In this document: positions 15,740 through 30,851 of the stretch, piece by piece | How positions within the stretch are numbered: position 1 is the first letter of the stretch | Layout: each line of letters starts with the position of its first letter | NCBI GenBank assembly: GCA_030018935.1 | Contig: JASEGZ010000011.1 | Span: forward strand, 1-44,780 | DNA: 44,780 nucleotides | DNA from: Syntrophales bacterium | Lineage (GTDB): Bacteria; Desulfobacterota; Syntrophia; Syntrophales; CG2-30-49-12 | Direction: 5' to 3' | Translations under genes and position numbers: made by a program | The notes under the pieces: model-generated | Databases searched by the model: none | The model's input: only the letters and a program-made list of their open reading frames with translations | Told to the model about the DNA's origin: nothing

Positions 15740-15906
15740 CTATAAGGCAAGCGTTCAGCCGTCAGCGATTAGTAATCAGTAAAACAAGTCAAGACAAGCA
15801 TGAAAACTCGTCCTGAAAGTTGTGAACTTCCCCTCGTATCCCCCTGTTTTCGCTGAAAACTGAAGGCTGGCAACTGAATGCTTACAATAATGAGGAGATG
15901 GCTGTT

Positions 15907-17655
15907 ATGTTTAAGGAGGAGGCGCTGCGAGAAATAGAAAAACGGAAGAAGGAGTGGGAAGAGAAAACAATAAAAGCCTCTATGAAACGGTTTGGCATTG
16001 GGGAAAATCCCAACAAGTTCTATAGTCCAGAGGATGTTAAAGATTTTGATTTCCTGGAAAAGGTTGGATTTCCCGGGGAGTACCCGTTTACTGCGGGGAC
16101 TTATCCCACCCAGATACCCGGTGCCGGTCCTGTTATCGGCGGTGGTTTCCTGGAAAGTGGCGGAGGTCTAACCAGAGCGGGACGTTACTCTGGTTATGGC
16201 ACGGCAGAAGATACCAGAGACTATTATTGTAAGATGCAAGGCTTGGGGCGAGAAGGAGGACCTAATATTGCTTTCGACCTTCCCACTCAATGTGGTTATG
16301 ATTCTGACCACCCTATGGCTCGAGGTGAGGTGGGCAGGACGGGGGTAGCCATAGATACATTGAGAGATTTTGAAGTCCTTTACGAGGCATTTACCGATGA
16401 CAGAGACCTGGACAGGATAGCCTCTGACTGGACTATTAATGCCCCGGCTAACATAATTATCGCCATGTACGCTGTTCTGGCTAAGAAGAGGGGTATCCCC
16501 CTTGATAAGCTTAAGGGGACACCACAGAATGACATTTTGAAGGAGTTTGCGGCTCGCGGTACCTATATCTTTCCACCCGCTCCCTCAATGAGGATGGTAA
16601 GGGATACCATTACTTTCTGTACCAGGCATATGCCTTCAATGAATGTAATCAGCATTTGCAGCGGTCACATTCAGGAGGCTGGCGCTACTCATCCACAACG
16701 ACTGGCTTTCTACTTTGCCAATGCCATTGCTTATGTGCAACTGGGAATTGATGCCGGGCTGAACGTAGATGACTTTCTTCCCAGATTTACCTTTCTCGGT
16801 TTTGGTGGAAGCATGGAGTTGCTTAGAGAAGTGGCTCTCTGGAGGGCAGGGCGGAGGATGTGGGCCAGGATAGTAAGAGATAAGTTCAAAGCAAAGGATA
16901 TCAGATCCTACCGCATGCGGATGCCCGGGGTTGGTATGTCCGGGTATAGTAGCATGACCAAACAGCGTCCCCTTAACAACTTGGTGCGCGCCACCTTTGC
17001 CGGTATTGCTGCTGCCCTTGCTGGATATCCTCCCAGTTGTGAACCTCCTTATGATGAGGCATTGGGGTTAGGATGGAGTCTCGAGGCAATGCAACTATCC
17101 CTTGATGCTGCAAGGATTATCCAGTATGAAGGGAAGCTGACCGAGGCACTTGATCCTCTGGCAGGGTCTTATTATATAGAAGCGATGACGAATCAGCTTG
17201 AGGAGGAGGCGTGGGATATCCTTAATAAGATAGAGGCTATGGGCGGTGCCGTGGCTGCTATTGAGAAAGGTTTCGTACAGAAGGAACTTGCCAGGAGTGC
17301 CCATCAGCACCAGAAGGAGATAGAAACCAGGCAGAAGATAGTGGTAGGGGTAAATGCATTTCTCGGGGAGAACGAACTGGAAGTTACCACTAACAGGCTT
17401 GTCCCCCATCCCTACGATCCTGAGAGGAGAACTGAAGCAGAGGAGAAGCAGATAGCAGCTCTGACCATGGTGAAGCGAGAGAGAGACAACGAAAAGGTAA
17501 AAGCTACCCTGAAGCGGTTGGAGGAGGCAGCTCATGATGAGAAGGTAAATCTTATTTGCCCCATCATGGAAGCAGTTGAAGCCTATGCTACCCTCGGGGA
17601 GATATGCGATGTTTTAAGGGGGGTATTTGGAGAATATACTGAAGTTTCCTTATAG
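15907..17655 (+). CDS. Methylmalonyl-CoA-mutase-type catalytic subunit
   Basis: This is a 582-residue TIM-barrel catalytic subunit of a B12-dependent acyl-CoA mutase. Family marks include AFDLPTQCGYDSDHP, GEVGRTGVAID, GTPQNDILKEF and FPPAPSMR. Compared with Propionibacterium methylmalonyl-CoA mutase from memory, the substrate-selecting Tyr89 and Arg207 appear to be kept (GRYSGYGT, Y94; AARGTY, R217). That predicts a carboxylated CoA substrate rather than isobutyryl- or 2-hydroxyisobutyryl-CoA. Between Y66 and Y94 there is an insert of about 14 residues rich in glycine, and the usual FRPWTIRQY segment is replaced. The C-terminal B12-binding domain (about 140 residues) is absent, and no separate B12 subunit occurs in this window. 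The ATG at 15907 is preferred because GAGGAG lies nine bases before it; the ATG at 15898 directly abuts that site. It leads the catabolic cluster. Confidence 0.88.
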   Translation: MFKEEALREIEKRKKEWEEKTIKASMKRFGIGENPNKFYSPEDVKDFDFLEKVGFPGEYPFTAGTYPTQIPGAGPVIGGGFLESGGGLTRAGRYSGYGTAEDTRDYYCKMQGLGREGGPNIAFDLPTQCGYDSDHPMARGEVGRTGVAIDTLRDFEVLYEAFTDDRDLDRIASDWTINAPANIIIAMYAVLAKKRGIPLDKLKGTPQNDILKEFAARGTYIFPPAPSMRMVRDTITFCTRHMPSMNVISICSGHIQEAGATHPQRLAFYFANAIAYVQLGIDAGLNVDDFLPRFTFLGFGGSMELLREVALWRAGRRMWARIVRDKFKAKDIRSYRMRMPGVGMSGYSSMTKQRPLNNLVRATFAGIAAALAGYPPSCEPPYDEALGLGWSLEAMQLSLDAARIIQYEGKLTEALDPLAGSYYIEAMTNQLEEEAWDILNKIEAMGGAVAAIEKGFVQKELARSAHQHQKEIETRQKIVVGVNAFLGENELEVTTNRLVPHPYDPERRTEAEEKQIAALTMVKRERDNEKVKATLKRLEEAAHDEKVNLICPIMEAVEAYATLGEICDVLRGVFGEYTEVSL

Positions 17656-17674
17656 TAAAGGGGGAGGTGTTAAA

Positions 17675-19039
17675 ATGGAACAGAAGATTACAGAAGGAAT
17701 AGCCGATTTTGTGGCAAAAACAAGTTATAACCAGCTTCCCCAAGAGGCTATAAGTGCTGCCAAAGGATGCATCCTTGATTGCCTCGGCGTGTCTTTGTTG
17801 GGATCAAGGGAGGAGGCAAGCAGGATCATGATTGAATATGGCAGGAGATCTGAAGGTAGCCCTGAAGCTACGGTATGGACGGGCAAGATTATGGTCCCAG
17901 CTTCTCAGACCGTCCTTATCAATGGCACCATGGCCCATGTTTTGGATTATGACGATTATTCCCTTACCTGGCTTGCCCATCCCACGGTAGCAATCTTTCC
18001 CGCAGCACTGGCCATGGCAGAAAAGTGCCATCGCCCGGGTAGGGAATGTCTACTGGCTTATATTTTAGGGGTAGAAGTAGGGGGGAAACTAAGTGCCGCG
18101 TTCGGCAACACCCATTATCTCGTGGGATGGCACAATACAGGAACTCTGGGCAGCATCGGAGCAGCGACAGCCAGTGTAAAGATATTGAACCTGGACGTTA
18201 AAAAGATAAAATTTGCACTGGGAATCGGCGCTTCCCTTGCCAGTGGATTGAGACAGAACTTTGGCAGCATGACCAAATCCCTCCATGCAGGGAGTGCAAA
18301 TAGGAATGGTATCGTGGCAGCGGAGTTAGCAGAGGCTGGTTTTACCTCGGACGAGAATATAATTGAAGCCCCTTTAGGGTTCTCCAAGGTCTTTGCCGGT
18401 GGTAAGGAACAGCCTCTGGATGGGGTGCCTGGGTCTTTAGGTAATCCGTTTGAGATTGTCTCTCCGGGCCTTACTATAAAACCTTACCCTTCCTGTGGTG
18501 GTACCCATCCCATGATATATGCCATGTTAAACCTGAAAAAGGAACATGATCTCTCCCCGTCTGAGGTTACTGAAATAGAATGTCGCGCCAGCCGTGCTTT
18601 ACCCAATATATTGATCCATCATCGTCCGCATCAGGGATTGGAGGGTAAGTTCAGTATGGAGTTTTGCCTGGCTGCGGCACTCACTGACGGTAAGATTGGT
18701 GTGGGACAATTCACGGATGAGAGCATCAACCGATCTGAGATCCAAGACCTTATTTCCCGGACAAAATTTGTCCATCCTGAAGACTGGAGTGAAGATATCA
18801 TCTCTCCCCAGGAGGTGGTTGTCAGACTAAAGGATGGCAGAGAGTTCTCCCGAAAGGTTTCCTTCGCCGATGTCCCGGGTTCTCCCAGGAATCCGATTAC
18901 CTGGGAGGAGCAGTGTAACAAGTTCAGGGACTGCGCCCAGATAGTTCTTCCTGCAAAAAAAATAAACGAGATTGTCGAGTTGGTATTACATTTTGACGAA
19001 CTACGGGATGTTAATGAACTGACAAAATTGCTGACTTAA
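17675..19039 (+). CDS. MmgE/PrpD family protein
   Basis: This 454-residue protein is an MmgE/PrpD-family member. The family includes 2-methylcitrate dehydratase and cis-aconitate decarboxylase, which act on branched tricarboxylates. Seen here are the CLGVSLLGS start region, the HVLDYDDYS motif typical of the active-site helix, the GWHNTGTLGSIGAA stretch, SLHAGSANRNG and the KPYPSCGGTHP segment. Length is typical. The ATG at 17675 has a strong GGGGGAGG site; an upstream in-frame ATG at 17627 lies inside the mutase gene and has none. It follows the CoA mutase by 19 bases, so a shared pathway in propionate-like or branched-acid metabolism is likely. The exact substrate cannot be assigned. Confidence 0.88.
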   Translation: MEQKITEGIADFVAKTSYNQLPQEAISAAKGCILDCLGVSLLGSREEASRIMIEYGRRSEGSPEATVWTGKIMVPASQTVLINGTMAHVLDYDDYSLTWLAHPTVAIFPAALAMAEKCHRPGRECLLAYILGVEVGGKLSAAFGNTHYLVGWHNTGTLGSIGAATASVKILNLDVKKIKFALGIGASLASGLRQNFGSMTKSLHAGSANRNGIVAAELAEAGFTSDENIIEAPLGFSKVFAGGKEQPLDGVPGSLGNPFEIVSPGLTIKPYPSCGGTHPMIYAMLNLKKEHDLSPSEVTEIECRASRALPNILIHHRPHQGLEGKFSMEFCLAAALTDGKIGVGQFTDESINRSEIQDLISRTKFVHPEDWSEDIISPQEVVVRLKDGREFSRKVSFADVPGSPRNPITWEEQCNKFRDCAQIVLPAKKINEIVELVLHFDELRDVNELTKLLT

Positions 19040-26485: not shown

Positions 26486-27628
26486 ATGGAAAGGATATTG
26501 AGTAAGATTGCAGAGACCACATCAGATCCCTATGGGTATGTCGCTGGGCTCAAGGAGCGTAAGAATAAGAAGATTATTGGTTGTTTCCCCATGCACATTC
26601 CGGAAGAGATAGTCCACGCCGCCGGTCTGATACCGGTAGTAATATGGAGAGGCAACGAACCGGTAACATGGGGACATGCTCATGTGCCACCGTATGACTG
26701 TGGTATTACAAGAAGCTTCGTTGATGATGCAGTGAGAGGAAAACTGGATTTTATGGATGGGCTGGTCTTCCATATAAGACAATGCCTGCAGGCGGGAGAG
26801 TTTCCCTTTATTATGGAGAGACATTTTAAGCCTGCCTACCAAAAGGTTTTATACCTTCCTGCCATCTATCCCGGCAAGGCCACAAGGGATTTTGCACTAA
26901 AAGAATTGGAATCTTTCAAGACATCATTAGAAGACTTCACCGGCAAAAAGATAAGCGATGATAATCTCAAGAAGAGTATTGAAATATATAATAAGAACCG
27001 CAGCCTTATGGAAAGGGTCTATGAAATGCGGCGGGAAAAACCGGAGATCTTGAAGGCAAAAGAGGTCATGCAGATAGTATGGTCGAGCATGTTGATGCCC
27101 AAAGAAGACCACAATGAATTGCTGACAGAGCTTATTAAAGGAATGGAAGAAAAGGCGATGGAAGCAAAAAAAGAAAAGATTAAGGTTATCCTCGTTGGCT
27201 GTCTCTGCCAGACCCTTCAATTTGACATCCTTGACCTGATAGAAGATCTGGGAATGATTATCCCTGACGATGACCTCTACATCGGTTCAAGATACTTTGC
27301 AAATAAAGTCAATCTGAATGGTGATCCCATGGAGGCCCTTGTGGATCGTTATCTTACCAAAAGCCCTCTCTGTCCAACCAAGGGAGTCTGGGATATCCAT
27401 TGGGGAGATGAGGTCATAAAGAAGATGAAGGATAACAATGCCAGGGGTATCATCAGTATCCTCGTAAAATACTGTCCTCCTCACGCCTGTTATTATCCTG
27501 ACTTTAGAAGCAAGATGGAGAAAGAGGGGGTACATGAAACAATGATACAGATGGAACACGAGATTATGACTCTGGAAGGGATAAAAACCAGGTTGCAGTC
27601 ATTTGCAGAGATGATAGGGGGTGTATAA
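26486..27628 (+). CDS. 2-hydroxyacyl-CoA dehydratase / benzoyl-CoA reductase family subunit (HgdB/BcrC type)
   Basis: This is a 380-residue subunit of the 2-hydroxyacyl-CoA dehydratase/benzoyl-CoA reductase family, which uses a [4Fe-4S]-bound ketyl-radical or dearomatising mechanism. Likely cluster cysteines are in IIGCFPMHIPEEIVHAAG (near residue 33), HIRQCLQAGEF and KYCPPHACYYPD. The length matches HgdB (379) or BcrC (384). The stop overlaps the next gene by one base (TAATG), and that gene encodes the partner subunit. Whether the substrate is a 2-hydroxyacyl-CoA, an enoyl-type or an aromatic CoA thioester cannot be told; the nearby dehydrogenase, SDR and oxidoreductase fit either. The enzyme needs an ATP-driven activator, whose gene is broken just downstream. 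Confidence 0.9.
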   Translation: MERILSKIAETTSDPYGYVAGLKERKNKKIIGCFPMHIPEEIVHAAGLIPVVIWRGNEPVTWGHAHVPPYDCGITRSFVDDAVRGKLDFMDGLVFHIRQCLQAGEFPFIMERHFKPAYQKVLYLPAIYPGKATRDFALKELESFKTSLEDFTGKKISDDNLKKSIEIYNKNRSLMERVYEMRREKPEILKAKEVMQIVWSSMLMPKEDHNELLTELIKGMEEKAMEAKKEKIKVILVGCLCQTLQFDILDLIEDLGMIIPDDDLYIGSRYFANKVNLNGDPMEALVDRYLTKSPLCPTKGVWDIHWGDEVIKKMKDNNARGIISILVKYCPPHACYYPDFRSKMEKEGVHETMIQMEHEIMTLEGIKTRLQSFAEMIGGV

Positions 27629-28887
27629 TGGATGTGCAATATAAAGTAAACAGGCTTAAAACAACGAATGAGATCAGGCTGTTGGTAGATAAACACTGGG
27701 CTGACCTGAGAACAGCCAAGGAAAGAGGAGAGATGGTGGCATGGGCATCGGGCCCCACATTCATATTTGCCTATGCAATGGGTATGAAATGCCACTTTAT
27801 GGCCGGTTATGCCGCATACTGCGGCGGTATAGGGGCAGGAGAAGAGGTGTTAAGGGTGGCAGAGATGGCGGGGGACCTTCCTGAGACGTGTTCATATCAT
27901 CGCCTTCACATGGGGATGGGCGAAGCGGTAGCCAGAGGGATACCCATAAATCCACAGGCAATACTTCCCATGCCAGATTTGATGATAGCGGGTCGCCTCT
28001 GCCCGGAGATGTCCCATTATGCTGAGGGGCTTCATCGAAGATTTGGAGTTCGCGTTTTGCCTATTGATCTTCCTGCTGTTTTCAATGTAGAAGACATGCC
28101 CAGGATAAGAGAATTTGTTTACAGGCAATTTAAAGAGGTTGTTATACCGACTTTTGAAGATGTATGCGAAAAGCCCTTCGATTATGATCGAATGAGTGAG
28201 ATCTTAAGTATACTCAAAAAGGTAGCCACCCTCAGAAATCAGTGTTGGGAATTTTTTAAGGACAAACCCTCTCGTTGGACACTCTGGGACTATGGTGTAA
28301 GTATTGCACCTGTTTTCTATTTGATGGGAAATCCGGCAGGTATCGCCTATTACGAAAGACTCCTTAACGAATTACAAGAGCGGAGAGAACAGGGTATCCC
28401 TGCAATAGCCCCGGATGGAGAGAAATACCGGCTATATTGGGATGGGTGGCTTCCCTGGGCGTTTTTAGGCAAATTTATGCGCAAATTTATCCCTCATGGC
28501 GCCGTTGTCCTCTGTGGAAGATATCCCTGGGAGTTTTTCCCTCATCCGGAACTGATTGACCCTGAACATCCGGTTGAGACCTGGGCAGATTTATATTATG
28601 GGATGGAAAGTCACCTGATTTATACCTTCTCCCCTAAGGGAACAATAGACTTGATAGGCAAGTTGATTGAGGACTACTCCCTTGACGGATTGATCATGTT
28701 TTCCTCCAAAACATGCAGGATAATGAACCTTGCCCAACCGGATGTAATAGATGTGTTGGATAAAAAGTACGGGATTCCTGGAGTAATTGTTGAAGGAGAC
28801 ATGATTGATCCCGCTATGATTTCAGATAATCAGATAGAGACAAGGCTTCAGGCGTTATACGAAATGATAGATTCAAGAAGAAGGTAA
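27628..28887 (+). CDS. 2-hydroxyacyl-CoA dehydratase / benzoyl-CoA reductase family subunit (HgdA/BcrB type)
   Basis: This 419-residue protein is the partner subunit. Its C-terminal part has the family signature FSSKTCRIMNLAQPDV then GIPGVIVEGDMIDP and NQIETRLQALYE. In this signature the cysteine ligates a [4Fe-4S] cluster and the EGD loop lies at the active site. Further cysteines are in KCHFMAGYAAYCGG and AGRLCPEMSHY. Its length is nearer BcrB (about 438) than HgdA (about 477). Translation is coupled to the upstream subunit through TAATG. Immediately after its stop, after a five-base gap, comes the truncated activator gene. Confidence 0.9.
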   Translation: MDVQYKVNRLKTTNEIRLLVDKHWADLRTAKERGEMVAWASGPTFIFAYAMGMKCHFMAGYAAYCGGIGAGEEVLRVAEMAGDLPETCSYHRLHMGMGEAVARGIPINPQAILPMPDLMIAGRLCPEMSHYAEGLHRRFGVRVLPIDLPAVFNVEDMPRIREFVYRQFKEVVIPTFEDVCEKPFDYDRMSEILSILKKVATLRNQCWEFFKDKPSRWTLWDYGVSIAPVFYLMGNPAGIAYYERLLNELQERREQGIPAIAPDGEKYRLYWDGWLPWAFLGKFMRKFIPHGAVVLCGRYPWEFFPHPELIDPEHPVETWADLYYGMESHLIYTFSPKGTIDLIGKLIEDYSLDGLIMFSSKTCRIMNLAQPDVIDVLDKKYGIPGVIVEGDMIDPAMISDNQIETRLQALYEMIDSRRR

Positions 28888-30371: not shown

Positions 30372-30749
30372 TTAACTACCCACACTGGATGGCAGCCTAC
30401 GTCCATAGCCTATATTTAGTTCCTTTTGTCGCTGATTGAGAAACTCATCCAATTTCAGAATGTTCCACCGCTGATTGGCTCTTCTGAGTTCGACTATAAT
30501 ATCCTTAGCATCTCTCAGCAATGCCTCATCTGCATCTTTCCCGATGCTTGCCAGTTTCATAGAGAGTTCCTTCATTTCCTCTTCTTCCCCTTCTAAGGCC
30601 TCAGCCCTCGAAAATATACCAGTGGTCCCACACCTGGGACACTGCCGGAAGTCAGCACATCCGGTAGCTGGTCAACCAGCCTTACTCAGGTATCTGAATG
30701 TGTAAAATACATCTGTAAAGCCACACTTGTCACAAGTCATCTTCATCAT
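30372..30749 (-). CDS. Zinc-ribbon protein with in-frame TGA, candidate selenoprotein
   Basis: A minus-strand frame of 125 codons begins MMKMTCDKCGF with AAGGAGGT eight bases upstream. It is open to TAA except for one TGA at codon 26 (30672-30674). CDKC before the TGA and CPRC after it (QCPRCGTTG) form a zinc-ribbon pair, so the protein spans the TGA. After it come 99 more sense codons, encoding a charged, helical C-terminal half with no further damage. The local sequence is KAG-(TGA)-PATGC, so a selenocysteine would have a cysteine five residues on. Three bases past the TGA a hairpin can form (GCUxCCGGA with UCCGGxAGU, ten-base loop), placed as in bacterial SECIS elements. If the TGA is a true stop, the gene is a pseudogene, or a separate 67-residue frame starts at 30575. 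The family is unknown to me. Confidence 0.55.
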
Positions 30750-30851
30750 CTCACTACCTCCTTCTTTTCTCTAATTAGTCCGTCCTGAAAAATAGGACTT
30801 TTCAAACGTTGTTGTGATTTTGCTCTTTGAAAACTGAAGAAGACGAAAGAT

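Follow-up and report, generated by a model that had tools for sequence, protein, structure and literature searches.

The closest described systems for the locus presented here include small subunits of two glycyl radical enzymes, benzylsuccinate synthase and (1-methylalkyl)succinate synthase (MASS), the latter of which joins alkanes to fumarate. In the former, the beta subunit BssB gates radical installation, while the 2025 structure of MASS led to the proposal that its delta subunit, MasE, gates the glycyl radical domain and overlaps the activase site (PMC12358834). MasE may even help to reduce the activase cluster, and its rubredoxin fold was called enigmatic (PMC12358834). The MASS of Azoarcus HxN1 has been described without a selenoprotein of the kind reported below (PMC12358834).

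The DNA analysed (the window) comprises 44,780 nucleotides from a Syntrophales bacterium (GCA_030018935.1, contig JASEGZ010000011.1). One of its genes very probably codes for a selenoprotein, and the family of this protein had not been listed before (Table 1). Taken as a whole, the evidence makes it likely that this new, MasE-like family provides an accessory factor of MASS. The ribosome site, the cysteine pairs and the 99 sense codons between the TGA at codon 26 and the TAA, on which the original prediction was built, are all present; the prediction had left unstated that the gene lies on the minus strand, and an open frame is absent from the plus strand of the same coordinates. Purine-rich sites like the Shine-Dalgarno sequence of the window occur in several homologues. 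The product, MMKMTCDKCGFTDVFYTFRYLSKAGU-PATGCADFRQCPRCG..., continues into about 80 residues of predicted helices and consists of a rubredoxin-like/zinc-ribbon domain (residues 1-50) and a helical C-terminal domain (residues 55-111; mean pLDDT of the AlphaFold2 model 79.8). Cys6, Cys9, Cys37 and Cys40 would bind one metal.

Table 1. Positions of the features discussed, in window coordinates unless a contig (C) or locus (L) is given.
Feature	Position	Strand	Evidence or remark
Selenoprotein gene, 125 residues + TAA	30372..30749	minus	Start ATG 30749, stop TAA 30374-30372; translation with TGA as U, 24-row family alignment, AlphaFold2
Shine-Dalgarno AAGGAGGT	30756..30763	minus	6 bases upstream of ATG 30749, from sequence
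First CxxC, Cys6-x2-Cys9, one metal-site knuckle (predicted)	30723..30734	minus	Invariant in family alignment; matches MasE Cys3/Cys6
In-frame TGA, codon 26 (Sec)	30672..30674	minus	Column holds TGA in 16 members and TGC/TGT (Cys) in the other 8
First RNA hairpin (original prediction)	30641..30668	minus	Same register in many Sec homologues
Second CxxC, Cys37-x2-Cys40, other metal-site knuckle (predicted)	30630..30641	minus	Invariant in family alignment; matches MasE Cys32/Cys35
Second RNA hairpin core, GUCCCA-GGUG-UGGGAC	30625..30640	minus	Fits published bacterial SECIS model better
Methylmalonyl-CoA-mutase-type gene	15898..19039	plus	53-57% identical to mas-operon mutase
Two adjacent 2-hydroxyglutaryl-CoA dehydratase D-component genes	26486..28887	plus	
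tRNA-Sec-shaped tRNA, anticodon GCA (Cys)	C18:22198-22289 (= L003 1501-1592)		
TusA-like ORF near the GCA tRNA	L003 2777-2995		
Second ribbon family	L025 1465-1665	minus	
Second ribbon family	L026 1501-1701	plus	
Second ribbon family	L027 1453-1656	minus	
Second ribbon family	L044		

With regard to ancestry, comparison of the family profile with solved structures left MasE (PDB 9o8u chain D, E 0.0022) as the sole credible relative, and profile-profile comparison with eight MasE homologues gave a probability of 96.4 and an E value of 1.2e-9 over 43 columns. The structural match to MasE extends over 46 residues at 1.4 A with a Z of 5.8, a value that is middling when taken alone; a Foldseek search of the PDB returned nothing at E 0.001. 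Judged by sequence comparison, the ribbon and MasE are distant paralogues, with Sec26 falling in a loop that is absent from MasE in the profile alignment.

The genomic setting of the family points in the same direction. Of 20 homologous loci, 18, spread across several families of the phylum, have a MoxR ATPase gene immediately downstream of the gene, and a VWA gene comes next after MoxR in nearly all of these. Immediately upstream, masE is found in 15 of the 20 loci, where the gene forms part of the alkylsuccinate synthase (mas) operon and masD, masB and the activase gene are nearby; the order in relatives is masD-masB-masE-(selenoprotein gene)-MoxR-VWA. The glycyl radical enzyme at these loci scores 1255 bits against MasD of HxN1 vs. 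475 bits against benzylsuccinate synthase, the masB and masE neighbours match chains B and D of 9o8u, and the flanking genes, encoding a methylmalonyl-CoA-mutase-type enzyme, MeaB, a CoA ligase and enoyl-CoA hydratases, fit the pathway. In about 390 genomes of the phylum, MasD (called at E below 1e-150) was present in 15 of 17 carriers of the gene vs. 3 of about 373 others (Fisher p 2.6e-22, which overstates the case because the genomes are related). One of the two carriers counted without MasD, G052, does have fragments of MasD where contigs end, and in three genomes (G381, G420 and G507) MasD is present while the selenoprotein gene was not detected. Locus L133 (8865-14096) contains tandem glycyl radical enzyme genes, one product being near MasD (66% to the L105 protein) and the other more distant (48%). 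Two adjacent glycyl-radical activase genes were observed in L134 (10649-12547), L118 (1538-3477) and L136 (6795-8701), with a shorter MasE-like ribbon that lacks Sec as a recurrent neighbour.

The window's own genome departs from this arrangement. Its gene stands by itself on contig C11, flanked by an aminotransferase and unrelated genes and outside any mas operon, and the same holds for the gene of its sister species. The same genome encodes two full MASS-type MasD proteins (1375 bits on C15 and 1326 bits on C9 against HxN1 MasD) and a third MasD in tandem; C9 also carries MasE and MasB, and C15 a MasE-like ribbon, two activases, MoxR and VWA. Within the window, the mutase-type gene is followed by a distant MmgE/PrpD gene, and both are possibly part of alkylsuccinyl-CoA rearrangement. 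The solitary position of the gene in the window's genus would also suit a selenoprotein that acts elsewhere, in general thiol redox, metal handling or transcription regulation, and that owes its place in the mas operon to co-transcription, the more so as zinc ribbons are versatile and the protein weakly matches many unrelated ribbon families. We nevertheless consider such a role unlikely in view of the direct adjacency to MoxR in loci from several families, the near-exclusive co-occurrence with MasD and a homology to the MASS subunit that extends past the Cys knuckles.

MoxR/VWA pairs are established as enzyme activators in other systems. As an accessory factor of MASS, presumably in physical contact with it, the selenoprotein would most likely have as its partner the MoxR/VWA pair encoded next to it in relatives, during glycyl radical installation or enzyme protection. 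Its fold would combine a MasE-like ribbon, Sec26 in the inter-knuckle loop and a helical C-terminal domain in place of the MasE tail. Sec26 and a neighbouring Cys (Cys31 in the window) may form a redox pair of low potential, which would serve either to reduce the activase or the synthase or to sense oxidation, and the ATPase would remodel the complex while the Sec paralogue acts as redox partner or sensor. That the paralogue is encoded between masE and MoxR/VWA suggests such a function in activation or protection. The redox role in radical installation or protection is not derivable from homology, as MasE has neither Sec nor Cys at the place of Sec26, and it is put forward tentatively. The idea that a Sec redox switch working with the MoxR/VWA ATPase controls glycyl radical installation or repair in alkylsuccinate synthase is similarly speculative; if true, the anaerobic degradation of oil alkanes would be influenced by selenium in many bacteria of the phylum.

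The identity of the TGA was derived from the family. When 149 relatives, the order, about 395 phylum genomes and also genome contigs were searched, covering about half of the species in the taxonomy, 24 members including the window's protein came to light, 16 with TGA and 8 with Cys in the same alignment column, and none with Trp, Arg or Gly. In the 24-row alignment 24 columns never vary, and they lie on either side of the TGA column. The closest member (78% identity) is on the same contig as the MAG Syntrophaceae bacterium CG2_30_49_12, from the window's own genus. The best tree contains three changes between Sec and Cys, and dN/dS 3' of the TGA amounts to 0.07-0.25 in all measurable family pairs, indicating purifying selection on the downstream protein. 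No Sec member lacks a Cys within five residues of its Sec; the arrangement is U-x-x-C in most, C-x3-U in many and U-x4-C in the window. The TGA is a selenocysteine codon, and the original prediction of a candidate selenoprotein is thus supported by a conserved TGA, Cys as its alternative and, as described next, the Sec machinery of the genome.

SelA is encoded on C1, SelB on C29 together with FdhD, and a canonical tRNA-Sec with anticodon UCA (76.3 bits with the Rfam tRNA-Sec model) on C5. Decoding of the TGA would involve SelB, tRNA-Sec and a hairpin that follows shortly after it in the mRNA. A second tRNA-Sec-shaped tRNA has the Cys anticodon GCA; tRNAs of this kind are reportedly charged with Cys and able to decode SECIS-directed UGA through SelB (RNA Biology, 2018). 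In this genome, UGA might then be decoded at least mainly as Cys, a reading favoured by the score of the GCA tRNA (63.7 bits, above the gathering score of 47) and by Cys being the natural alternative at the TGA column. We regard it as improbable: the same recoding signal would still be required, and because the canonical tRNA-Sec scores higher and SelA is present, Sec insertion should be available. With the GCA tRNA in the genome, however, residue 26 could be partly Sec and partly Cys. Recent breakage of the gene or an error of assembly, for which the stop codon in the frame is the sole argument, is practically excluded by the same TGA in 16 genomes, the downstream purifying selection and the Sec machinery: recurrence at the exact same column is far beyond chance, and retention in independently assembled genomes excludes a sequencing error.

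Selection tied to Sec is also supported at the RNA level. The hairpin originally predicted three bases after the TGA was recovered with 8 pairs, one mismatch and a 10-base loop, which closes further on folding. Its loop, 12-15 nt from the TGA, falls short of the bacterial SECIS model, which places the loop 16-37 nt after the UGA, with G in the first two loop positions and an MFE of -7.5 or lower (PMC13188914). A second hairpin, or both together, is therefore the better SECIS candidate. The second hairpin lies within the CPRCG codons, its loop (GGUG, starting GG(U)) is located about 36-37 nt from the TGA, and the corresponding fold has -23.5 kcal/mol and z -2.26 relative to dinucleotide shuffles, 4 of 200 of which folded as well. 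The window's second hairpin fits the SECIS model, while the fit is not uniform over relatives, some of which fit the hairpin pairing poorly; two hairpins are possible. Since ribbon codons alone make such a hairpin likely, synonymous recodings were also tested: Sec genes were more stably folded than their recodings, whereas Cys genes were not, the mean folding z being -1.72 in 16 Sec genes vs. -0.10 in 8 Cys genes (Mann-Whitney p 0.0008, only indicative as the rows are related). Where CPRCG contains Arg, its codon is AGG in all 11 Sec genes concerned vs. CGG in both Cys genes, the AGG share among local Arg codons being 7-42%. Folding excess and AGG use support RNA-level selection tied to Sec, each hairpin being a candidate for the one that SelB binds. 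Rfam SECIS_1 matched neither the window's genome nor any control and is hence uninformative.

A second ribbon family of 66-67 residues with an in-frame TGA (MEVICKNCKFKKDHTDYIFVGTGGU-HTVGSVEVRKCPRCG) was encountered in the f14 genus, outside the mas operon. Compared with synonymous recodings, its RNA is more stably folded (z about -2.4), and it is likely another unlisted selenoprotein.

The family described here is not among the entries of a 119-family review of bacterial selenoproteins, so that it adds to a 2026 catalogue, and no paper joining alkylsuccinate synthase with a selenoprotein in the present sense was found in the open-licence literature. As standard gene callers stop at TGA, most annotations probably lack the gene or contain it in truncated form. 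Pfam, NCBIfam and PHROGs gave weak ribbon matches only, all below cut-off, and searches of phages, plasmids and viral contigs found nothing that would suggest a mobile or phage origin. The family is a candidate for a missing part of the enzymes that initiate the anaerobic breakdown of alkanes; why MASS needs a rubredoxin-like subunit was left unexplained by its 2025 structure, and a Sec paralogue encoded between MasE and an AAA ATPase makes this question testable.

Several known selenoprotein families were compared and rejected. The model of NF041197 (OS_HP3/hypothetical protein DW) misses the gene in its own genome at the cut-off of 40 bits, with an hhalign profile-profile probability of 22 over 9 columns; no family member reaches the 130 bits of NF049953 ((seleno)protein DG), the 172-residue architecture of which was not found; and for the FmdB family (TIGR02605, Sec form UxxU, cut-off 31.3 bits) one member scored 10.6 bits, with 1 of 24 at E 0.038. 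The original statement that no zinc-ribbon selenoprotein of such a shape was known has to be amended, since NF041197 and NF049953 are zinc-ribbon-like; the gene belongs to neither.

NF041197, a small (seleno)protein with a dual CXXC motif from the same phylum, likewise places Sec between two CxxC pairs but differs in its spacing, its R-x-U motif and its length of about 53 residues. NF049953, also a zinc-ribbon selenoprotein of related bacteria, exhibits a 20-column local likeness around C-P-A-C-G but has 172 residues, two ribbons, a KGCCG centre and another Sec motif. BssB is comparable as a small accessory subunit that carries a metal cluster and belongs to a fumarate-adding glycyl radical enzyme; it has a HiPIP-like [4Fe-4S] fold and lacks Sec. 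With MasE the family has in common two CxxC knuckles in the same register, the F-[RK]-Y-L and R-Q-C-P-x-C stretches and, in relatives, the same operon as a neighbouring gene. MasE, on the other hand, has about 71 residues and neither Sec nor Cys between its knuckles. At its C-terminus, PWGKSAGIE forms a tail in contact with the glycyl radical domain; this tail is seen in true MasE homologues and is missing from the alignment of the Sec family, which differs by its inserted Sec loop and its helical domain and occurs beside true masE.
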